Origin: Stappia sp. 28M-7
GTDB taxonomy: Bacteria; Pseudomonadota; Alphaproteobacteria; Rhizobiales; Stappiaceae
Direction: 5' to 3'
NCBI RefSeq assembly: GCF_014252955.1
Contig: NZ_JACMIA010000001.1
Span: 4,526,001 to 4,590,000 of the forward strand
Length of the DNA: 64,000 bases
Positions 43,210 to 56,738 of this stretch are shown in pieces. Numbering within the stretch: the first letter of the stretch is position 1; every line of letters starts with the position of its first letter. The notes under the pieces were generated by a model. The model saw only the letters and a list, made by a program, of their open reading frames with translations, had not been told where the DNA came from and made no database searches. The position numbers and the translations under genes are program-made.

Positions 43210-43749
43210 TTATTTGCCGGAAAACCCGTCGAAATCGGCGGCCGGGGCACCCGGTCCCGCCCTTTCGATCAGCCGCAGCAGGGCCCGGCGCAGCGTCTCC
43301 GTTTCCCCCTCGCCGATCGCCTCGACCAGCCGTGCCTGATGCGCTTTGGCGTCGAGGATAAGTTCATCGACATGCGCTTCGCCTGCCGGCGTCAGCCTTA
43401 CCCAGACACGGCGCCGGTCTTCCGCGTCCGTCTGCCGCTCGACCAGCCCCTTGGCGACCAGCTTGTCCACGGTCTTGGAGATCGCCGGCTGGTTGGCAAG
43501 GCAGCTCTTCGCCAGATCGCCGACGGTCAGCCCCTCGCCCGTTCCCTTCAGGGAGGCGAGGATGCGCCACACCGCGACCGGCACCCCGCGCGCCCGCACC
43601 TGTTCGTGGAATTCCGCGCTTGCAACGCTGGAGGCCCGCGCCAGCAGATAGAGCAGGTAGCCGTCGACGAAGCGTCCGTCCCGGCCTGCGCTCGCGCTCT
43701 CCGGCTGGCTGCCGGCGGAGGGGCGGCTGGGTGCCGCGATATCGGTCAT
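43210..43749 (-). CDS. MarR family regulator of the catabolic locus (NicR-like by context)
   Basis: MarR-type winged-helix regulator, 179 residues. Core: VAVWRILASLKGTGEGLTVGDLAKSCLANQPAISKTVDKLVAKGL in adjoining pieces (about 58-103), DAEDRRRVWVRLTPAG wing. A Ser/Ala-rich 25-residue leader precedes it. Its gene ends the short minus-strand unit with the flavin reductase and faces the dioxygenase operon, the same arrangement as the MarR regulators (NicR, PicR) that control 2,5-dihydroxypyridine pathways. The inducer is not known. The ATG 43749 lies 10 bases after the flavin reductase stop. Confidence 0.9.
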   Translation of the reverse strand: MTDIAAPSRPSAGSQPESASAGRDGRFVDGYLLYLLARASSVASAEFHEQVRARGVPVAVWRILASLKGTGEGLTVGDLAKSCLANQPAISKTVDKLVAKGLVERQTDAEDRRRVWVRLTPAGEAHVDELILDAKAHQARLVEAIGEGETETLRRALLRLIERAGPGAPAADFDGFSGK

Positions 43750-43759
43750 TGCACGCCTC

Positions 43760-44263
43760 TCATTCGGGCAGGACGGCCGACGCATCGGCATAGCTCGGGG
43801 TCGCGTACCGCCCCGAATGATAGAGCAACGGCTCGCGGTCGGCATGGTCGAAGGCCTCGACCTTGCCGAGGAAAACCAGGTGGTCGCCACCCTCCACCCG
43901 GGTCGCGTTGAGGCACTCGAACACCGCGGTTACCCCCGCCAGCACCGGCACGCCGCACTGCCCCGGCTGCCAGGAAACTCCGGCGAAACGGTCCTCCACC
44001 GGCCGCGCGAACCGGTCGGACAGCGCCCGCTGATCGGAGGCCAGAATGTTGACCGCATAGTGCCGGGACCGCTCGAAAACGGCGAGATTCTGCGATTTTC
44101 GGGCGAGGCTCCACAGCACCATCGGCGGATCGAGCGAGACCGAGTTGAACGAATTGGCCGTCAGCCCGACCGGCCGGCCGGCCTCGTCCAGCGTGGTGAC
44201 GATGGTGACCCCGGTGACGAACCGCCCGAGGGCGCTGCGGAAGCTGCGGTGATCGCTCATCAT
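43760..44263 (-). CDS. Flavin reductase family protein (HpaC-like)
   Basis: Small flavin reductase of the HpaC/DIM6 FMN-binding split-barrel family, 167 residues. It would use NAD(P)H to supply reduced flavin to a partner monooxygenase. Typical segments: SALGRFVTGVTIVTT, PVGLTANSFNSVSLDPPMVLWSLA and HYAVNILASDQ. The start is ATG 44263 (ATGATG) with GAGGA seven bases upstream; a longer reading to 44347 lacks a ribosome-binding site. Such enzymes pair with flavin-dependent monooxygenases; the nearest candidate is the acyl-CoA-dehydrogenase-fold protein at 46342. Confidence 0.9.
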   Translation of the reverse strand: MMSDHRSFRSALGRFVTGVTIVTTLDEAGRPVGLTANSFNSVSLDPPMVLWSLARKSQNLAVFERSRHYAVNILASDQRALSDRFARPVEDRFAGVSWQPGQCGVPVLAGVTAVFECLNATRVEGGDHLVFLGKVEAFDHADREPLLYHSGRYATPSYADASAVLPE

Positions 44264-44498
44264 GGCCTGTCCTCGTGCCTTCGGCTTGCGGAATGCCGGC
44301 GAGCCGCCGCCGGCAACAAGTTCATGCCTAAAAATATTCCTTTTCATACAATAACGAAATTGCTACGCTCCTCCAAGTTCTTTTCGCTTGCTGCGAAAAT
44401 TGCCCGCCCGGCGCAACAAAACGTCGGACGGCACGGATCGGGCCGTGCCGGACGTCGGCGCGAAGCGATTGGCCGGGGCGGATCGGGAGGAGGATCTG
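44264..44498. other. Divergent control region of the catabolic locus
   Basis: These 235 bases separate the MarR/flavin reductase unit from the dioxygenase operon. About 44320-44400 is a distinct AT-rich island in an otherwise GC-rich window and contains a TACAAT (44347-44352) that could be a -10 element. I could not fix a MarR operator by eye. Confidence 0.5.
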
Positions 44499-45545
44499 AT
44501 GCTCGCCGACAGGATCGAGGGAAAGTGGATCGACGCCTTCGCGGCCGTCTTCACCCTCTGCAAGGTGGCGCCGGGGGAGAGTGTCGCGATCCTCTCCGAA
44601 ACCCAGTCACGCGCCCTCAACGTCCACATCGCGGAACTTGCCCTGCAGCGCCTCGGCGCCCGGCCTTTCCATGTGGTCGTGCCGACGCCCCCGCAGGATG
44701 CGCCGGTGCCGGTGCGCTCGACCGGTGCCTCGGCTGCGCTCACCGGACAGGACGCGGCGATTGCCGCCCTTGCCGCCAGCGGCCTTGTCGTCGACCTGAC
44801 TGTCGAAGGCCTGCTGCACGCGCCGGAGCTGCCGCGCATCATCGCGGGCGGCGCCCGCATGTTGATGATTTCAAACGAACATCCGGACGCGCTTGAGCGC
44901 CTTCTGCCGCAGCCGCGCGACAAGGACCGGGTGCGAGAGGCCGTCTCCCGCATCCGTGCGGCGACCGAGATGACCGTCACTTCCGCCGCCGGCACGGATC
45001 TCAAGGTCGCCATGAAAGGCGCCTCGACCGTCGGCGTATGGGGCTGGTGCGACCGGCCGGGCTCCGTCGCCCACTGGCCGGCCGGCCTCGTTGTCAGCTT
45101 CCCTGCCGCCCACAGCGTCAACGGCACGTTGGTGCTGGATGCCGGCGACATCAACCTGACCTTCAAGCGCTATCTCGAGCGCCCGGTCCGCCTCACCATC
45201 GTCGACGACTACGTGACGGAGATCGAGGGCGAGGGCACCGATGCCGAACTGACCCGCCGCTATCTCGCCGCCTGGGGCGACAAGGAGGCCTATGCGGTCG
45301 CCCATGTCGGCTTCGGCATGAATGCCGGGGCACGCTACGAGGCGCTGACCATGTACGACCAGCGCGAGACCAACGGCACGGAAGTGCGCGCCTATTCTGG
45401 CAATTTCCTGTTCTCGACCGGAGCCAACGAGTTCGCCGGCCGTTTCACCAAGGGCCATTTCGACATCCCGGTACGCGGCTGCACCATCGCGCTCGACGGC
45501 GAGCCGGTGGTGATGGACGGCGAGCTGATCGAGGCGCTGCGATGA
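44499..45545 (+). CDS. NicX-type 2,5-dihydroxypyridine 5,6-dioxygenase family protein
   Basis: Fe(II)-dependent ring-cleavage dioxygenase of the NicX family, which has the aminopeptidase-T (M29-like) fold. 348 residues, against about 350 for NicX. The expected iron ligands are at matching positions: H269 (AHVGFG), H320 and D322 (GHFDIP); NicX uses H265, H318 and D320. GTLVLDAGDINLTFK, HWPAGLVVSFP and YSGNFLFSTGANEF also follow NicX. ATG 44499 has GGGAGGAGG upstream. NicX converts 2,5-dihydroxypyridine to N-formylmaleamate; the substrate here could be a substituted analogue. An annotation as leucyl aminopeptidase would be misleading. First gene of the operon. Confidence 0.8.
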   Translation: MLADRIEGKWIDAFAAVFTLCKVAPGESVAILSETQSRALNVHIAELALQRLGARPFHVVVPTPPQDAPVPVRSTGASAALTGQDAAIAALAASGLVVDLTVEGLLHAPELPRIIAGGARMLMISNEHPDALERLLPQPRDKDRVREAVSRIRAATEMTVTSAAGTDLKVAMKGASTVGVWGWCDRPGSVAHWPAGLVVSFPAAHSVNGTLVLDAGDINLTFKRYLERPVRLTIVDDYVTEIEGEGTDAELTRRYLAAWGDKEAYAVAHVGFGMNAGARYEALTMYDQRETNGTEVRAYSGNFLFSTGANEFAGRFTKGHFDIPVRGCTIALDGEPVVMDGELIEALR

Positions 45546-46345
45546 ACGGGACCGACCACATCCGCAGGACCGGGGGCGAGCGCGCCATCGTGCTGCTGCA
45601 CGGCATCGGCGCCGGTGCGGAGATGTTCGCGCCGCAGATCGAGGGGCTCGGCCAGGATCACGACGCCATCGGCTGGAACCTTCCCGGCTACGGCGGCACC
45701 GCGCTGCTGTCGCCGATGACCTTCCCCGCATTGTCTGAGGCCCTGCTCGCCTTTCTCGACCGGCTCGGGCTCGACCAGGTCGACCTGCTCGGCCACTCCA
45801 TCGGCGGCATGCTGGCCCAGGACTTCGTCGCCCGCCATCCAAGCCGCGTGCGCACCCTGGTTCTGTCCGCCACCACCGCCGCTTTCGGCAGCCGCGACGG
45901 CGAGTTCCAGAAGCGCTTCGTCGCCGAGCGGCTGGCCCCGCTCGATGCCGGACGCACGATCCCCGAGCTTGCCCGCGAATTCGTGCCGGATCTCGTCGGA
46001 CCAGCCTCGGACCCGGCTGCCGTACCAGTCGCGACCGCCGCCATGAGCCGGGTGCCGGAGGCGACCTATCGCGAGGCGATCCGCTGCCTTGCCACCTTCG
46101 ATGCCCGCGATACGCTGGCCGACATCGCGGCGCCGGTTCTGCTCGTCGCCGGCGAGGTGGACCGCAACGCACCCGCCCCGACCATGCGCCGGATGAGCGA
46201 GAAGCTGCGAGACGCCCGCTACCTGGAGCTGCCCGGCACCGGCCATCTGGCCCCGCTGGAATGCCCGCAGGCCTTCGAGACCGCGCTCCGCGACTTCCTG
46301 AACCAGACCGAGACCACACCGCCGCAAGAGGGAGCAGGCCGATGA
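45542..46345 (+). CDS. Alpha/beta hydrolase (NicD/PcaD-like) of the catabolic operon
   Basis: Alpha/beta-fold hydrolase, 267 residues. The oxyanion region is VLLHGIGAG (17-25), the nucleophile S86 is in LLGHSIGGM, and the acid and histidine lie in LVAGEVDRNAP and GTGHLAPLE. It resembles both 3-oxoadipate enol-lactonase (PcaD) and N-formylmaleamate deformylase (NicD). Directly behind a NicX-like dioxygenase, with an ATGA overlap, deformylation or hydrolysis of the ring-opened product is the likely task. This is inference from position; the sequence alone does not fix the substrate. Confidence 0.82.
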   Translation: MNGTDHIRRTGGERAIVLLHGIGAGAEMFAPQIEGLGQDHDAIGWNLPGYGGTALLSPMTFPALSEALLAFLDRLGLDQVDLLGHSIGGMLAQDFVARHPSRVRTLVLSATTAAFGSRDGEFQKRFVAERLAPLDAGRTIPELAREFVPDLVGPASDPAAVPVATAAMSRVPEATYREAIRCLATFDARDTLADIAAPVLLVAGEVDRNAPAPTMRRMSEKLRDARYLELPGTGHLAPLECPQAFETALRDFLNQTETTPPQEGAGR

Positions 46346-47613
46346 CCGTCGCCGATCTCGAGACGCTCGACATGGACAAGCCGATCTTTGATCCCAAGGC
46401 CTTCCGCCTGACCGAGCAGGAGGAGGAACTTACCGCCCTCGCCCGCCGGGTGGCCAAGTCCCGCTTCGCTCCGCGTGCCGAGGCCATCGACCGCGACGCG
46501 GTGTTCCCGACCCAGAACTACCGCGACATGCACGAGGCCGGCCTTCTCGGCATCTGCGTGCCCAAGGAGGACGGCGGCCACGGCGCCCCGTTCCGCACCT
46601 ACATGATGACGGCCGCCGAGATCGGCCGCTATTGCGGTGCGACCGCCCTGACCTGGAACATGCATGTGTGTTCCTGCCTGTGGACCGGCGCGCTGACCGA
46701 CGACCTGGAAATCGAGGCCGGCGAGCGGGAGCTGCATCGCCAGCGCCGTGCCGTACACTATAAGCGCATCCTGGAAGACGGGGCCATCTACTCCCAGCCC
46801 TTCTCGGAAGGCGGCGCCGCCGCCGCTGGCGCTGCGCCCTTTTCCACCTCCGCCCGCAAGGTCGACGGCGGCTGGATCATCAACGGCAAGAAGATCTTCG
46901 CCTCCCTGTCAGGCCATGCCGACTACTACGGTATCCTCTGCGGCGAGATGAAGGAGGGCGAGCGCCCCTCCCGCCGCGACACGATGTATATCGCCGTGCC
47001 GGCAACGGCCGAGGGCGTCGAGGTGGTCGGTCCCTGGGACCCGCTCGGCATGCGCGGCACCGTCTCGCGCACCCTGCTGTTCAAGGACGTCTTCGTGCCC
47101 GAGGACGAGGCATTGATGCCGCGCGGCGTCTACTACCAGGCCGCCAGCCGCTGGCCGCACATGTTCATGACCCTGTCGCCGACCTACATGGGCATCGCCC
47201 AGGCGGCCTTCGACTTCACCGTCAAGTATCTGCGCGGCGAATGGCCGGGCCTGCCGCCGGTCAAGCGGCGCATGTTCCCCACCAAGCAGATGGGCGTTGC
47301 CCAGATGCACCTGATGCTGGAGCAGACCAAGGCCCTGTGGTTCCAGGCGATCACCGAGGCAGGTCCCGATCCCTCGCGCGAGCAGATGCTGCGCGCCTGG
47401 GCGGCACACTACACGGTGATGGAAAACGCCAACGAGATCTGCCAGCTCGCCATCCGCACCTGCGGCGGCCAGTCGATGCTGAAGTCCCTGCCGCTGGAGC
47501 GCCTGTTCCGCGACAGCCGCTGCGGCGCCCTGATGCTGCCCTGGACGGCCGAGATCTGCCTCGACCGGATCGGCCGGGAAAGCCTCTACCTGCCGGGAGA
47601 AACCGACGAGTGA
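46342..47613 (+). CDS. Acyl-CoA dehydrogenase-fold flavoprotein lacking the usual catalytic glutamate
   Basis: FAD protein of the acyl-CoA dehydrogenase superfamily, 423 residues. The fold is clear: ICVPKEDGGHGAPF, the FAD loop YSQPFSEGGAAAAG, KVDGGWIINGKKIFAS and IRTCGGQSMLKSLPLERLFRD in adjoining pieces. Where true dehydrogenases have YEGT with the catalytic Glu, this protein reads LPWTAE (399-404), giving P400 by eye alignment; the alternative IVD-type Glu on helix G is also not seen. Flavin monooxygenases of this fold (HsaA, DszC, IacA) lack that base and use a separate flavin reductase, which this locus has. Hydroxylase or dehydrogenase remains open. ATGA overlap with the hydrolase gene. 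Confidence 0.85.
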   Translation: MTVADLETLDMDKPIFDPKAFRLTEQEEELTALARRVAKSRFAPRAEAIDRDAVFPTQNYRDMHEAGLLGICVPKEDGGHGAPFRTYMMTAAEIGRYCGATALTWNMHVCSCLWTGALTDDLEIEAGERELHRQRRAVHYKRILEDGAIYSQPFSEGGAAAAGAAPFSTSARKVDGGWIINGKKIFASLSGHADYYGILCGEMKEGERPSRRDTMYIAVPATAEGVEVVGPWDPLGMRGTVSRTLLFKDVFVPEDEALMPRGVYYQAASRWPHMFMTLSPTYMGIAQAAFDFTVKYLRGEWPGLPPVKRRMFPTKQMGVAQMHLMLEQTKALWFQAITEAGPDPSREQMLRAWAAHYTVMENANEICQLAIRTCGGQSMLKSLPLERLFRDSRCGALMLPWTAEICLDRIGRESLYLPGETDE

Positions 47614-49148
47614 CGTCGATCGACCACTGGATCGAGGCGCATGCCCGCTTCACACCGGAGAAGACGGCGCTGGTCTTCGGCGACGAGCGGATCGATTACG
47701 CCGCTCTCGCCGCCCGCATCGGCCGTCTGGCCGGTGCCCTTGCCACCCGCCACGGGATCACCCGCGGCGAGCGGATCGCGTATCTGGGCACCAATTCGCC
47801 CGACCAGCTGCTGCTGACCTTCGCCGCGGCCCGGCTCGGCGCCATTCTCGTGCCGTTGAACTGGCGCCTTGCCCCACCCGAGCTTGCGCACGCCCTCGCC
47901 GACAGCGGCGCAAGACTGCTGGTGCATCAGCCCGACTTCGCCGCCACCCTTGCCGCGATGGCGGCCATCGCCCCACTTCCCGAGACGCTGGTCGCCGATC
48001 CGGCAACGGGCGGTCTCGCCCGCCAGACGCTGGATGATGCACCGCTCGGCCATGGCGAGGGAGACGGTGCGGCGCAAGATCCCCTGCTGATCGTCTACAC
48101 CTCCGGCACGACCGGCCGGCCGAAAGGCGCCGTCCTGACCCAGGCCGCCGTCGAGGCCAACGCGCTGAACGCCCTGCACATGCAGGAGATCACCGCCGCC
48201 GACACGGTGCTGACGGTGCTGCCGATGTTCCATGTCGGCGGGCTCAACATCCAGACGACACCGGCGCTCTATGCCGGGGCGACGGTGATCCTGCACGACC
48301 GGTTCCACCCCGGCACGACGCTCGCCGCGATCCGCGACCAGCGTCCCGACATCACGGTCCTCGTGCCGGCAACGCTCGCCGCGCTGATCGCCCATCCCGA
48401 GTGGGAAACGGCGGACCTTTCCTCCCTGCGCCTTGTCGCGACGGGCTCCTCCGACGTTCCGCACGCCCTGATGCGCGCCTTCGTCGACCGCGGCGTTCCG
48501 GTGCTGCAGGTCTATGGCGCGACCGAGACCGGGCCGGTGGCGATCTATCAGCGCCGCGAAAACGTCGTCCCGGAATTCGGTGCCATCGGCCGGCCCGGCC
48601 TGCATACGAAGGCGCGCATCCGCATCGGCGACCGCGATGCCCGTCCCGGCGAGATCGGCGAGATCGAGCTCAAGGGCGGCAACATCACGCAAGGCTACTG
48701 GAACAACGAGACGGCGACCGCCGACACGTTCCGCGACGGCTGGTTCCGCACCGGCGACCTTGCCCTTTGCGACGAGGCGGGCGTCTTCTGGTTCAAGGAC
48801 CGGCTGAAGAACGTCATCATCTCCGGCGGCGAGAACATCTATCCGGCCGAGCTGGAGCGGGTACTCGGCGAGATCGCCGACCTGAGAGAAGCCGCAGTGG
48901 TCGGCATTCCCGATCCGCGCTGGGGCGAAAGCCCCGTGGCGGTGGTGGTTGCGGAACCCGGCCGGGAGGTCACCGCCGAGGCGGTGCTGGCAGGGTTCGA
49001 CGGACGTCTGGCGCGCTACAAGCACCCGAAATCCGTCGTCTTCACGCAGGAGCTGCCGCGCAATGCGCTCGGCAAGATCCAGCTGGAAAGGGTCAGGAAA
49101 ATAGCCGAGGATGCGCTCAATGCGTCCGGCAAGAAGCAAAGCGCCTGA
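47610..49148 (+). CDS. AMP-forming acyl/aryl-CoA ligase
   Basis: Adenylate-forming CoA ligase, 512 residues, starting with GTG 47610 that overlaps the preceding stop (GTGA). Motifs: YTSGTTGRPKG at 163-173 (A3), YGATETGPVA (A5), GWFRTGDLA (A7), GGENIYPAELE hinge and NALGKIQ with the catalytic lysine near the end. The closest general types are feruloyl- or medium-chain acyl-CoA synthetases; the acid it activates is unknown. In this operon it would prime a carboxylate, either the imported substrate or a ring-cleavage product. 31 bases before the TRAP receptor gene. Confidence 0.92.
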   Translation: MTSIDHWIEAHARFTPEKTALVFGDERIDYAALAARIGRLAGALATRHGITRGERIAYLGTNSPDQLLLTFAAARLGAILVPLNWRLAPPELAHALADSGARLLVHQPDFAATLAAMAAIAPLPETLVADPATGGLARQTLDDAPLGHGEGDGAAQDPLLIVYTSGTTGRPKGAVLTQAAVEANALNALHMQEITAADTVLTVLPMFHVGGLNIQTTPALYAGATVILHDRFHPGTTLAAIRDQRPDITVLVPATLAALIAHPEWETADLSSLRLVATGSSDVPHALMRAFVDRGVPVLQVYGATETGPVAIYQRRENVVPEFGAIGRPGLHTKARIRIGDRDARPGEIGEIELKGGNITQGYWNNETATADTFRDGWFRTGDLALCDEAGVFWFKDRLKNVIISGGENIYPAELERVLGEIADLREAAVVGIPDPRWGESPVAVVVAEPGREVTAEAVLAGFDGRLARYKHPKSVVFTQELPRNALGKIQLERVRKIAEDALNASGKKQSA

Positions 49149-49179
49149 CCGGAACAAGAACCAGACAGAGGGGACTGAA

Positions 49180-50193
49180 ATGCGGAAATTCATCGGGATG
49201 CTGACCGCGGTTGCGGCACTTGGCCTCGCCACTGCCGCCTCCGCCGAGACCACCTTGCGCGTATCCAACTGGCTGCCGCCCTCCCACCCCATCGTCAAGG
49301 ACATCCTGGCCCCCTGGGGCGAGCAGGTGGCCAAGGCGACCGACGGACGCGTCAAAGTCGAGATCATGGCCGCGCCGATCGGCAAGCCGCCGGCACAGTT
49401 CGACCTGATCCGCTCGGGCGCGGCCGATGTCGGCTATGGCGTGCATGGCTACACGCCCGGCCGCTTCAAGCTAACGCCGCTGGTCGAGGGGCCGTTCCTG
49501 TCCGACAGCGCCGAGGCGCTGTCCGTCGCCTACTGGAAGGTGCAGGAGGCGATGCTCTCCAAGGCCGACGAGCATGAGGGCGTCAAGCTGCTCACCGTCT
49601 TCACCCATGGTCCCGGCGGCATCTACACCACCAACAAGAAGGTCGCCTCGGTCGACGACCTTGCAGGCCTGAAGATGCGCATTGGCGGCGGCATCGTTGC
49701 CGAGATCGCCTCGCGGCTCGGCATGGTCGGCGTGCAGGCCCCCTCCCCGCAGGTCTACGAGATCCTCGCCAACGGCGTTGCTGACGGCATCCTGTTCCCG
49801 CCGGAGTCCGTGCCCTTCTTCCGCATCGACGAGGTGATCCGCAACGGCGTGTCGGTGCCGGGCGGCCTCTACAACACCTCCTTCTTCGTGGTGATGAACC
49901 GCGGCGCCTGGGACAAGCTCTCCGACGAGGACAAGGCCGCCATCGACAGCGTGTCAGGCGAGGCCATGGCCCGCATGGCCGGCCAGGCCTGGGACGCGGC
50001 CGACGCGGCCGGGATCAAGGTGATGGAGGAAAAGGGCGTCGCCCAGACCACCGCGGACGATGCCATGACCGCTGCCATCGCCGAAAAGCTCGCCGGTGTC
50101 GAGAAGGGCTTCCTCGACGCGGCCTCCGCCGCCGGCATCGATGGCCAGGCTGCCATCGACATGCTCAAGGCCGAGATCGCCGCAGCGAAATGA
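49180..50193 (+). CDS. TRAP transporter substrate-binding protein (DctP family)
   Basis: Periplasmic solute receptor of a tripartite ATP-independent transporter, 337 residues. The signal peptide is 1-22 (ends ASA before ETTLRVSNW). The DctP signature region KVASVDDLAGLKMRIGGGIVAEI contains the conserved arginine (R in KMRIGG) that salt-bridges a substrate carboxylate, so an organic acid ligand is likely. GAGGGG precedes ATG 49180. It is the first of three TRAP genes; the position behind a CoA ligase suggests it brings in the pathway's acid. Confidence 0.94.
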   Translation: MRKFIGMLTAVAALGLATAASAETTLRVSNWLPPSHPIVKDILAPWGEQVAKATDGRVKVEIMAAPIGKPPAQFDLIRSGAADVGYGVHGYTPGRFKLTPLVEGPFLSDSAEALSVAYWKVQEAMLSKADEHEGVKLLTVFTHGPGGIYTTNKKVASVDDLAGLKMRIGGGIVAEIASRLGMVGVQAPSPQVYEILANGVADGILFPPESVPFFRIDEVIRNGVSVPGGLYNTSFFVVMNRGAWDKLSDEDKAAIDSVSGEAMARMAGQAWDAADAAGIKVMEEKGVAQTTADDAMTAAIAEKLAGVEKGFLDAASAAGIDGQAAIDMLKAEIAAAK

Positions 50194-50699
50194 CCGGCGA
50201 AACCCGCGACGGCGCGACCGGCCGGGGCGCAAGCCCCTTCCGGCCGCTCGCCGTGGCGACGCGCCTCCTCCAGCTCGTCGCCGCGCTGCTGCTGCTGGTG
50301 ATGATGACGGTGACCTTCGTCGACGTCATTGGTCGCTATGTGTTCAACAGCCCGCTGCCCGGCGCGTTCGAGCTGACCGAGGTGCTGCTGGCGCTCGTCG
50401 TCTTCGTCGGCCTGCCGATCGTCACAGCACGGCGGGAGCATGTCACCGTCGACCTCGTCACCGGCCGGCTGCCCGGTGCGTTGCGGCGCGGCTTTGCACG
50501 GCTGGCGCTCACGGTGACCGCCGGCGTGCTGGGGCTCCTGTCATGGCGGCTCGCCCTGCTGGCGCGCGACTTCAGCTCCTATGGCGATGCCACGGTCTAT
50601 CTCGGCATTCCGCTGGGGCCCGTCGCCCTCGCCATGGCCGTGCTGACCGGCATCTCGGCGCTGGTCGCCACCGTATTGATCCTGCGCCGGCAGCCCTGA
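50190..50699 (+). CDS. TRAP transporter small membrane subunit (DctQ family)
   Basis: Four-helix membrane subunit of the TRAP transporter, 169 residues. The DctQ pattern VTFVDVIGRYVFNSPLPGAFELTEVLLALVVFVGLP is seen in adjoining pieces, followed by the TARREHVTVDLV loop. The ATG overlaps the receptor gene stop (ATGA). It joins the large subunit in the inner membrane and helps couple receptor docking to Na+-driven import. Confidence 0.93.
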   Translation: MTGETRDGATGRGASPFRPLAVATRLLQLVAALLLLVMMTVTFVDVIGRYVFNSPLPGAFELTEVLLALVVFVGLPIVTARREHVTVDLVTGRLPGALRRGFARLALTVTAGVLGLLSWRLALLARDFSSYGDATVYLGIPLGPVALAMAVLTGISALVATVLILRRQP

Positions 50700-50741
50700 G
50701 CGGCCGCCTCGTCCACCTCCCCCAGGGACCTTCGCAAGACC

Positions 50742-52034
50742 ATGGAAACCTGGCTTCCCGGCCTCGTCATTCTCGTTGTCGTGATGTTCGCGGGCGTGCC
50801 GATCGCCGTCGCCATGGCCGCCGTCGGCGGCCTCGGCCTGACGATGATCCTCGGCTTCGCCCCGGCCATGGCGATGGTCGGACAGACCACCTTCGACACC
50901 GGCCTTTCCTACCCGTTGTCGGTGGTGCCGCTGTTCGTGCTGATGGGCAACCTCGTCACCCGGGCAGGCCTGTCCGACGAGCTCTACGCTGCCTGCCACG
51001 CCTGGCTCGGCCATCGACGCGGCGGCCTTGCCATGGCGACCGCCGTCGCCTGCGGCGGGTTCTCCGCCGTCTGCGGTTCCTCGCTCGCCACCGCCGCGAC
51101 CATGGGCAAGGTCGCCCTGCCGCAGATGCGCCGCTACAAATATGACGACGGGTTGGCGAGCGGCGTGATCGCCGCCGGCGGCACGCTCGGCATCCTGATC
51201 CCTCCTTCCGTGATCCTGGTGCTTTACGGCGTCACCGCCCAGCAGGACATCGCCAAGCTGTTCATCGCCGGCATCATTCCGGGCATTCTCGGCATCCTTG
51301 GCTACATGGCCGCCGTCTGGCTGGTCTGCTGGCGGCGCCCGGAAGCCGGTCCGCCGGCCGAACGCCTGCCCTATCGCGAGCGCTTCCGCGCCCTCGCCGG
51401 CGTCGCCGGCATCTCCGCCCTCTTCGCGCTGGTGATCGGCGGCATCTATGCCGGCGTCTTCACCGCCACCGAGGCCGCCGGCATCGGCGCCAGCGGCGCA
51501 TTCCTGATCGCGCTCGCCCGCCGCCGGCTGACCCTTGCCAACCTGCTGGAGACGCTGAGCGATACGGCCGCTACCACGACGATGATGTTCATGGTGCTGA
51601 TCGGCGCGCTGATCTTTTCCAACTTCGTCAACATCGCCGGCCTGCCGGCGGCGCTCTCCGGCATGGCGGCGGCCTCCGACCTGCCGCCCTGGGGCATCCT
51701 GCTGGCCGTCCTCGGCGTCTATCTCTGCCTCGGCATGGTGCTGGAAAGCCTCTCCATGGTGCTGCTCACCGTGCCGATCTTCGCGCCGATGATGGCCGCC
51801 CTCGGCTACGACCTCGTGTGGTTCGGCATCGTCGTCGTCGTCGTCACGGAAATCAGCCTGATCACCCCGCCGGTCGGCCTCAATGTCTTCGTGCTGAAGA
51901 CGGTGATGCCGGATGTCCCGCTCGGGCGGATCTTCCGCGGCATCGTGCCGTTCATCCTCGCCGATATCGTGCGTCTGGCGCTGATCGTCGCCGTACCCTC
52001 GCTGGTCCTGCTGCTGCCCGGCCTGATGCGCTGA
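50742..52034 (+). CDS. TRAP transporter large membrane subunit (DctM family)
   Basis: Twelve-helix transport channel of the TRAP system, 430 residues, the normal size. Characteristic: VPLFVLMGNLVTRAGLSDELY, AVCGSSLATAATMGKVALPQM, GVIAAGGTLGILIPPSVILVLYG and LITPPVGLNVFVLKTV. It lies 42 bases after the small subunit. Together the three genes form a complete Na+-driven importer and close the catabolic operon. No hairpin terminator is apparent after it. Confidence 0.95.
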   Translation: METWLPGLVILVVVMFAGVPIAVAMAAVGGLGLTMILGFAPAMAMVGQTTFDTGLSYPLSVVPLFVLMGNLVTRAGLSDELYAACHAWLGHRRGGLAMATAVACGGFSAVCGSSLATAATMGKVALPQMRRYKYDDGLASGVIAAGGTLGILIPPSVILVLYGVTAQQDIAKLFIAGIIPGILGILGYMAAVWLVCWRRPEAGPPAERLPYRERFRALAGVAGISALFALVIGGIYAGVFTATEAAGIGASGAFLIALARRRLTLANLLETLSDTAATTTMMFMVLIGALIFSNFVNIAGLPAALSGMAAASDLPPWGILLAVLGVYLCLGMVLESLSMVLLTVPIFAPMMAALGYDLVWFGIVVVVVTEISLITPPVGLNVFVLKTVMPDVPLGRIFRGIVPFILADIVRLALIVAVPSLVLLLPGLMR

Positions 52035-54805: not shown

Positions 54806-54993
54806 GCTCAACCGTCTGCCGTCGCCGCCCCGCGCAGGGCCGCGCCCGCGGCATCTTGGCGGTTTTACCCTTCGTCAACCTACTCTTTGAAACTCCCGTT
54901 TTTCGCAGAATGACTTAACCAACCGGTCGCTCCTTCGTGCCACTGTCCCGGCAACAGGCACGTGCCGCCGCATGGGCACGGGAGTGGGGAAAG

Positions 54994-56394
54994 ATGCTGT
55001 CTCGTAATTCCGGCAAGAGGCTGAAGGCTGCAGGACGCCAGGCGCGGCGCTTCGGCAGGGACCGCAGCGGTTCCATCCTGCCGCTCTTCGCGATCGTTGC
55101 GATCTTCGCGATCGTCGCCGGCGGCGCCGGCCTCGATTTCGCCCGCGCCATCAATCAGCGCCAGAGCATTGCCCGCGGCCTCGACGCTGCAATGCTGGCA
55201 GTGGCCCGAGAGCTTTCGATCCGCAACATGACCGCCGAAGAGATCAAGTCGTATCTCAACGCCAACTACGAGGCCTATTTCGGGGCCAATACGAAAGGGT
55301 CCGGCAGCGCCAGCCCCATCGTCATCGACGAGCCGAAGATCAACACCGAGTCCCGGGTGATCGAGGTTTCGGCGCGCTCGAGCGTTCCGACCTATTTCAT
55401 CCATCTCGCCGGCTTCGGCCCCAAGGAACTGAATGTCAGCGTCAACGCCGAGGCGGTCTATCCGAAGAGCGTCGAGGCGACGCTGGTCCTCGACGTGACC
55501 GGCTCGATGGGCGGCAGCAAGATTTCCGCGTTGCGCAGCGCCGCAACCAACTTCGTCAACACGCTGGTGCCGCCCGACATCGCACCCACCAACGAGAAGG
55601 TCCGGATCGCTGTCGTGCCCTATGCCAGCGGCGTCAATATCGGCTCCGCGCGCGCCTCGCTCGCCACCAAGGGGCTGAACGCCAGCCGCACCTCCTATCC
55701 CGGATGCGTGTCCGAGCGAGCTGGCGCCCAGGCCTATACGGACGTCAGCTATGTCACCGCGTCGATCGGCCCCGGCGCCCAGCAGGCCGGCTACAACAGC
55801 GGCTACTACTACGACGGCTGGAGCATGCTCAGCCACTCCGGCTTCGTCTGCCCCAATGCCGAAGTGGTGCCGCTGACGCTCGATCCGGGCTCTTCGTCCA
55901 AGCCCGGAACGCCGCTCTACACGATCTCCCGACTATCGGCGAGCGGCAACACTGCCGGCCAGACCGGCGTTGCCTGGGGTTGGTACACGCTGTCGGCCAA
56001 CTGGTCGACCCTTTGGCCGTCGGCCAGCAAGCCCGCCGCCTATACCGACGAACGCGTGCTGAAATACATGCTGCTGATGACCGACGGCGATTTCAACACG
56101 TGGTTCGACGGGCCGATGCGCGTCAACCGGACAAACTACGATTGGGTCGCAAGGCTCGACCAGAGTTCGAACTCGGCCAACCGCGCCATCGCCCTGTGCG
56201 CTGCGATCAAGAAATCCGGCATCCGGATCATCACCGTCGGTTTTCAGATCGGCAGCAACTCTCAGGCGAAGAAGGTCATGAGCGAATGCGCCTCCTCGTC
56301 CGGCGACTACTATCTCGCCGAAAACGAGGCCGAGCTGAACGGGCGGTTCCAGGCGATCGCCAACCAGATCAAGTCAACCTACCTGTCGCGCTGA
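54994..56394 (+). CDS. TadG-like pilus-assembly/von Willebrand factor A protein
   Basis: Membrane-anchored protein of 466 residues. A TadE/TadG-type N terminus (RDRSGSILPLFAIVAIFAIVAGG; helix about 28-46) is followed by a large periplasmic part with a von Willebrand A domain; its metal-ion site begins DVTGS at 167-171, and LLMTDGDFNTWFD and IRIITVGFQIG are later strands of the fold. This suggests a surface-linked adhesin or Flp-pilus pseudopilin-like protein. No tad/cpa genes are adjacent, so it is an orphan here. ATG 54994 has GGGGAAAG upstream; an earlier GTG (54937) is possible. Confidence 0.87.
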   Translation: MLSRNSGKRLKAAGRQARRFGRDRSGSILPLFAIVAIFAIVAGGAGLDFARAINQRQSIARGLDAAMLAVARELSIRNMTAEEIKSYLNANYEAYFGANTKGSGSASPIVIDEPKINTESRVIEVSARSSVPTYFIHLAGFGPKELNVSVNAEAVYPKSVEATLVLDVTGSMGGSKISALRSAATNFVNTLVPPDIAPTNEKVRIAVVPYASGVNIGSARASLATKGLNASRTSYPGCVSERAGAQAYTDVSYVTASIGPGAQQAGYNSGYYYDGWSMLSHSGFVCPNAEVVPLTLDPGSSSKPGTPLYTISRLSASGNTAGQTGVAWGWYTLSANWSTLWPSASKPAAYTDERVLKYMLLMTDGDFNTWFDGPMRVNRTNYDWVARLDQSSNSANRAIALCAAIKKSGIRIITVGFQIGSNSQAKKVMSECASSSGDYYLAENEAELNGRFQAIANQIKSTYLSR

Positions 56395-56662: not shown

Positions 56663-56738
56663 GCCGCTGTAGCTCAGTTGGTAGAGCACGTCATTCGTAA
56701 TGATGGGGTCGTAGGTTCGAGTCCTATCAGCGGCACCA
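56663..56738 (+). tRNA. tRNA-Thr (anticodon CGT)
   Basis: A complete 76-base cloverleaf: acceptor GCCGCTG/CAGCGGC, D-arm GCTC-AGTTGGTA-GAGC, anticodon stem CGTCA/TGATG around loop TTCGTAA (anticodon CGT, reading ACG), T-arm GTAGG-TTCGAGT-CCTAT, discriminator A and an encoded CCA (56736-56738). No integrated element is seen at its 3' end. Minus-strand reading frames across it are spurious. Confidence 0.96.

Follow-up and report, generated by a model that had tools for sequence, protein, structure and literature searches.

The 64,000-nucleotide stretch of the marine bacterium Stappia sp. 28M-7 analysed here (contig NZ_JACMIA010000001.1; hereafter the window) contains two gene groups that diverge from about 44.3 kb, with a flavin reductase and a MarR regulator on the minus strand and a NicX-like dioxygenase, an alpha/beta hydrolase, a protein of the acyl-CoA dehydrogenase (ACAD) fold, a coenzyme A (CoA) ligase and a tripartite ATP-independent periplasmic (TRAP) importer in the order P-Q-M on the plus strand. 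With a probability of roughly 0.55, we read this locus as an inducible operon for the catabolism of an imported aromatic carboxylic acid, in which flavin-dependent hydroxylation, ring cleavage by the NicX-fold enzyme, hydrolysis and CoA activation would proceed under the control of MarR. The operon is real and conserved and, as far as our searches show, undescribed within the open-licence literature searched.

The dioxygenase matches the solved NicX (7cn3) with an E value of 3.8e-59 over residues 50-381 of its 385-aa frame, and with ATG 44499 as the start its ligand motifs fall at 268 and 319. According to the excerpted text of the NicX structure paper (PMC7910607), iron is bound there by His265, Ser302, His318 and Asp320, while the substrate is contacted at N1 and O1 by Glu177 and His189 and positioned by a mobile pair, Leu104-His105. 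H269, H320 and D322 of the window protein, which an earlier interpretation of the same DNA (the sequence-only reading) had named as iron ligands together with a NicX-like length, indeed align to His265, His318 and Asp320 in a protein of 348 aa, and the fourth published ligand, Ser302, missing from that list, is likewise conserved. In our alignment, which left out the near copies L006-L027 and the short rows L108, L110 and L114, all four ligands are present in the window protein and in nearly the whole clade (80 of 82 rows in total); the exceptions are L056, with Pro instead of the Ser302 ligand, and L111 (9.4-10.6 kb), where the alignment looks broken. Other residues of the substrate site are kept as well (His105 82/82, His189 81/82, Arg293 82/82). 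Glu177, found in 12/12 nic-type rows, occurs in 0/82 clade rows, its place being taken by Val (46, the window protein among them), Gly (12), Ile (11), Ser (5), Asn (5) or Thr (3). Eight of the nic-type rows are the solved NicX or rows with annotated nic-type neighbours or labels, L031-L033 have the maleate isomerase close by in the genome, and L122 was assigned from sequence alone. Further residues are specific to the clade and kept in 74 or more of its 77 rows, e.g. Arg at NicX position 71 and His at 125 (L111, L001-L003 and L034 additionally left out). As the iron ligands are kept and Glu177 is lost, the iron chemistry has probably been retained, whereas a substrate other than 2,5-dihydroxypyridine is probable.

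A tree of 58 selected rows out of 100 placed the nic-type rows, the HpaB-linked rows and one archaeal row on one side of a branch with a support of 99/86, separate from the window clade, while support for the clade as grouped was only 79/73 and the program warned of long branches. Gln was found at position 177 in four rows, namely L115 and its relatives L028-L030, which represent a second NicX branch; in L115 (0.6-8.6 kb) the NicX-fold gene lies near an HpaB-type hydroxylase, two amidases, a flavin reductase and a GMC oxidoreductase. A haloarchaeal homolog (L117, 5950-7002) has Ser at 177 and Val at 189, and its gene neighbourhood includes Rieske-type dioxygenases, a dihydrodiol dehydrogenase and a thiamine diphosphate (TPP) enzyme. 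Pfam at a threshold of 0.01 assigned no family to the window dioxygenase, Peptidase_M29 included, whereas the M29-like outgroup L121 matched PF02073; by Pfam, then, the enzyme is not an M29 aminopeptidase. The grouping with such peptidases, named in the sequence-only reading as evidence that would count against it, did not appear in the tree either, where L121 sits on a very long branch.

Relatives of the dioxygenase are widespread. From a scan of public genomes 85 were obtained and 80 retained (53-99% identity), assigned by record titles, many of them of metagenome bins, to Alphaproteobacteria, Betaproteobacteria, Pseudomonadales and Acidimicrobiia. The host genome gave one match to the window dioxygenase, and a family-level search gave matches in 28 of 87 genomes, including 14/14 in the genus, and 22 of the 87 have a copy that is at least 50% identical. 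In the 47 of 80 loci whose flanks extend for 7 kb or more on each side, the neighbours were the hydrolase (40), the ACAD-fold protein (40), the CoA ligase (37), MarR (29), the reductase (22) and the TRAP receptor (15). Among 385 alphaproteobacterial genomes the dioxygenase clade was detected in 29 and the ACAD clade in 24; 21 genomes have both, 8 the dioxygenase alone and 3 the ACAD clade alone (Fisher p 4e-25); counted by genus (277 genera) the clades were found in 21 and 18, 15 of them shared (p 2e-17), these searches having scored 4-5 candidates per genome at most. Thus the gene set, whose occurrence in other genomes had been suggested as a check, is conserved far beyond chance.

For the ACAD-fold protein, Pfam, a predicted model (predicted local distance difference test, pLDDT, 88.8) and fold comparison all confirmed the fold. 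The dehydrogenase glutamate is replaced in 60/60 sequences, and an MLPWT-type sequence stands at the position of the IYEGT motif, which we take to be the place of the catalytic glutamate in acyl-CoA dehydrogenases. The best PDB sequence matches are tied between 5gj7, titled as a putative acyl-CoA dehydrogenase, and 5z8t, titled as a flavin-containing monooxygenase. The reductase reached 209.5 bits with NF045919 (cut-off 340) across the reductase half of the model; it is fused to MarR in L072 and L107, where the fused open reading frames (ORFs) cover positions 5-307 and 4-307 of the 309-position model with 178.7 and 184 bits. This resembles the two-component 4-hydroxyphenylacetate 3-hydroxylase of Acinetobacter, in which a reductase with a C-terminal MarR domain serves an ACAD-fold oxygenase: the order of reductase and MarR (fused in two loci) and the ACAD-fold partner are shared, but in the window the two are separate genes, and the equivalog scores are far under the cut-offs, the ACAD-fold protein giving 48 bits with the HPAH-like oxygenase equivalog of NCBIfam (cut-off 650). 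An ACAD-domain candidate oxygenase and a separate flavin reductase in one locus, a combination expected of HPAH-like group D two-component flavin monooxygenases, are found among the window genes, and we infer that the ACAD-fold protein is the oxygenase component of a two-component monooxygenase.

The closest solved structure to the CoA ligase is the feruloyl-CoA synthetase 8wev (1.4e-113, 383.7 bits, nearly full length), with which 8weu, named as a fatty-acyl-CoA synthase, ties. When a predicted model of the TRAP receptor was compared with known folds, 11 of the 15 closest matches were titled as aromatic-acid or TarP receptors (the visible titles of the first, second, ninth and fourteenth show no ligand), and these 15 stand 4.5 Z above the sixteenth. 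Six of the 11 hold a bound cinnamate-type acid or 4-hydroxyphenylacetate; the very best is 4p56, whose ligand is not in the visible title. The likeness to TarPQM extends to TarP structures that carry coumarate, cinnamate, ferulate, caffeate or 4-hydroxyphenylacetate. Sequence identity of the receptor is 26-30% with the TarP entries, 31% with the marine aromatic-acid receptors and 42% with 4p56. By analogy, the TRAP system would import an aromatic acid.

The ligase may alternatively act first, so that the ACAD-fold protein would hydroxylate an aryl-CoA, the NicX-fold enzyme open the ring of this CoA thioester and the hydrolase act on the opened product. Such a sequence would be in line with the ligase beside the core in 37 of the 47 loci, with its feruloyl-CoA synthetase relative, with the ACAD model, whose highest fold scores are with CoA-binding dehydrogenases, and with the gene accompanying the core in 11 loci whose scanned member (L060) belongs to the 3-hydroxyacyl-CoA dehydrogenase family. 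We nevertheless consider it unlikely, as a ligase of this kind is missing from the surroundings in 10 of the 47 full-flank loci, and the ACAD gene is replaced in places by hydroxylases of HsaA-like or HpaB-like type, which are known for free phenols.

The hydrolase scored 161.7 bits with PcaDC and 136.6 bits with PcaD, both under the cut-off, and its structure matches were 4uhc and 2xua. Its identity is 22-24% with the two NicDs that gave long alignments (five others aligned partially) and 35-54% with six of seven clade hydrolases tested, with 29% for the seventh, L001. It therefore appears from its sequence relatives to be nearer to 3-oxoadipate enol-lactonase/esterase types than to NicD, and of the earlier description as a hydrolase in the place of NicD the position holds and the type does not. 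The operon is without NicF, NicE and NicC (the search for NicC covered the operon only), in agreement with the sequence-only reading as to the first two. In a genome-wide search no match to maleate isomerase (NicE) was found, with 3/3 control genomes positive, and the corresponding search for maleamate amidase (NicF), made with no control run, gave only a weak partial match (35% identity, residues 107-187). Compared with NicX/NdpE and the nic/ndp clusters, the window thus shares the fold, the length, the iron ligands with His189 and Arg293, an adjoining alpha/beta hydrolase and the MarR regulator seen in several such clusters, but its clade has neither Glu177 nor Glu308, and the hydrolase and the remaining enzymes differ as described.

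A variant pyridine pathway could account for the shared fold and iron site, for the retention of His105, His189 and Arg293 and for the nitrogen-handling genes that adjoin some clade members; its substrate would be an N-substituted or carboxylated hydroxypyridine or pyridone for which Glu177 is dispensable, and the hydrolase would remove an N-formyl group as NicD does. The absence of Glu177 in 82/82 rows, a hydrolase that is not NicD-like, the lack of a NicE match in the genome and a receptor with 11 of its 15 best matches among aromatic-acid or TarP receptors make this rather improbable.

A further possibility concerns the ACAD-fold protein, which might be a dehydrogenase or a desulfinase-like CoA enzyme acting after ring cleavage, with the reductase serving an unlinked oxygenase. 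The fold comparison fails to separate monooxygenase from dehydrogenase, ranks CoA-binding dehydrogenases highest and includes 3-sulfinopropionyl-CoA desulfinase (5ahs, 5af7) among the matches, and the best NCBIfam match is the Rv1679-type acyl-CoA dehydrogenase (130 bits, cut-off 600). Against this stand the loss of the glutamate in all 60 sequences, the monooxygenase title of one of the two tied PDB matches and the lack of a second flavin oxygenase in the window's operon, and we regard the proposal as quite unlikely. The NicX homology would also fit a standard nic-type pathway for 2,5-dihydroxypyridine whose genes have been displaced, but this is very improbable in view of the lost Glu177, the 99/86 split in the tree, the lack of an isomerase match in the genome and the partial amidase match.

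For the regulator, the best NCBIfam relative is HpaR, with 53.6 bits and thus under the cut-off of 121.2. The element ATATTCCTTTTCATAC in the divergent region is conserved among Stappia relatives and can still be made out in distant loci. Its half-site TTTCATA or the complement occurs in the 250 bases ahead of the dioxygenase in 31/76 loci compared to 41/5101 control windows, and when 73 of the 80 loci were compared, it was present in 31/38 with a divergent MarR or reductase gene and 0/35 without. Of these 31 loci 13 are from close Stappia relatives, three from Cupriavidus relatives, and 18 lie outside the close Stappia group. Co-conservation is therefore good evidence for the TTTCATA dyad as the putative operator of this MarR lineage.

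In the aromatic-acid pathway that we favour, the acid would be imported by the TRAP system, as relatives suggest, and its ring hydroxylated by the ACAD-fold protein with O2 and reduced flavin from the reductase. The NicX-fold enzyme, whose iron site follows from the conserved residues, would then use Fe(II) and O2 to open the hydroxylated ring; it belongs to a subfamily whose substrate presumably does not offer a pyridine N/2-oxo pair to a Glu177. The ring-fission product would be split by the alpha/beta hydrolase, and the CoA ligase would activate an acid, which may be the fission product or perhaps the imported acid itself. MarR may repress both divergent units from the TTTCATA dyad until the substrate or an intermediate releases it. 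Inducibility, the imported aromatic carboxylate, the flavin hydroxylase, the CoA ligase and the absence of NicF and NicE from the operon were all part of the pathway proposed in the sequence-only reading and are retained here, but its link to pyridine and nic degradation is weakened. The loss of Glu177, a hydrolase that is not NicD-like and the aromatic-acid receptor matches speak for a carbocyclic aromatic acid at least as much as for a pyridine acid.

Coordinates of the locus in the window, with the assignment of each feature and its basis
Feature	Position	Strand	Basis
MarR-family regulator, 179 aa	43210..43749	-	Pfam MarR_2 8.5e-16; start codon is a chosen assignment
Flavin reductase, 167 aa, resembles 4-hydroxyphenylacetate (4-HPA) hydroxylase reductase	43760..44263	-	PF01613 3.3e-43
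Putative MarR operator ATATTCCTTTTCATAC, imperfect dyad ATATKMM..TTTCATAT	44334..44349	.	conservation; about 150 bases ahead of dioxygenase start
Predicted Fe(II) ring-cleavage dioxygenase of the NicX fold (subfamily lacking Glu177), 348 aa	44499..45545	+	7cn3 match, ligand residues, tree
Alpha/beta hydrolase, 267 aa	45542..46345	+	Abhydrolase_1 1e-25
ACAD-fold flavoprotein without dehydrogenase base, 423 aa	46342..47613	+	Pfam ACAD domains
AMP-forming acyl/aryl-CoA ligase, 512 aa, GTG start	47610..49148	+	AMP-binding 2e-78
TRAP solute-binding protein, TarP-like, 337 aa	49180..50193	+	DctP 8e-34; 4p56 1.1e-91
TRAP small permease DctQ, 169 aa	50190..50699	+	PF04290 2.4e-25
TRAP large permease DctM, 430 aa	50742..52034	+	PF06808 9.8e-94; TIGR00786 above cut-off

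Gene content and coordinates agree with the sequence-only reading, including the MarR/flavin reductase unit facing the dioxygenase operon; the five overlaps counted there reduce to four, each of 4 bases (NicX/hydrolase, hydrolase/ACAD, ACAD/CoA ligase and TRAP P/Q), with gaps of 31 bases between the CoA ligase and TRAP P and 42 bases between TRAP Q and M. The reductase lies upstream of the MarR start at a spacing of 10 bases. The locus is flanked by MetW, an alpha/beta hydrolase that we take to be MetX, and a methyltransferase on one side and by an aconitase-family gene, presumably leuC, on the other, and no marked shift in composition was seen at the locus. Further downstream in the window are an HNH endonuclease domain (about 54.53-54.66 kb), a VWA-domain protein (54937-56394) and a tRNA-Thr (56663-56738). 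Outside the window, the same genome encodes a homogentisate dioxygenase and an intradiol dioxygenase pair (G000:C3 2673-3128 and 23521-24647), so the operon is not the strain's sole ring-cleavage route.

The genes around the clade members vary, and across the clade loci they indicated no single substrate. In three Acidimicrobiaceae loci (L083, L085, L091) a PatB-like pyridoxal phosphate (PLP) enzyme, an arginase-family enzyme (agmatinase model above cut-off) and a class III aminotransferase adjoin clade members, which suggests an amine-bearing substrate there; an HsaA-like protein, scanned in L091, also accompanies Acidimicrobiaceae members. A plasmid version from Aminobacter/Ensifer (L001 9-18 kb, L002) combines dioxygenase, ACAD-fold protein and hydrolase with TetR, a glutamine-synthetase-like protein, an APC permease and a flavin reductase, the last upstream in L001 and downstream in L002, and the L001 hydrolase ORF has a long extra N-terminal part. 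A 3-hydroxyacyl-CoA dehydrogenase-type gene (PRK08269 in the one member scanned, L060) accompanies the core in 11 loci (L058, L059, L060, L063, L066, L068, L075, L077, L084, L089 and L107), and in all of these except L066 an octopine-dehydrogenase-family gene is found as well.

The open-licence literature searched gave no description of the gene set, the relevant hits being only the NicX structure paper and papers on pyridine and nicotine pathways. The set was likewise not found in the texts consulted on homarine/trigonelline, dipicolinate/3-hydroxypyridine, indole/skatole and 4-hydroxypyridine routes. The iif/ind indole clusters share a two-component indole oxygenase, a flavin reductase and a ring-opening oxygenase with the window, but there the cofactor-independent oxygenase IifA opens the ring, and the excerpted text mentions no NicX-fold gene (PMC6221969).

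Somewhat more tentatively, we propose that the NicX fold has a large sister subfamily in Proteobacteria and Acidimicrobiia that would cleave benzenoid hydroxylated aromatic acids, with a dedicated ACAD-fold hydroxylase, hydrolase and MarR switch. With its unchanged iron site, altered substrate residues and one gene set in several bacterial classes, such a subfamily flags a pathway for which a direct search for the substrate is feasible, the receptor, the MarR operator and a growth phenotype each offering a screen. Its recognition would also help to keep genomes from being annotated as degraders of 2,5-dihydroxypyridine or as encoding M29 peptidases; two plasmid relatives are labelled 'peptidase M29'. 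If the proposal is true, a benzenoid-cleaving NicX-fold subfamily would constitute a further widespread bacterial route of aromatic ring fission, by a fold that has so far been described for the pyridine ring.

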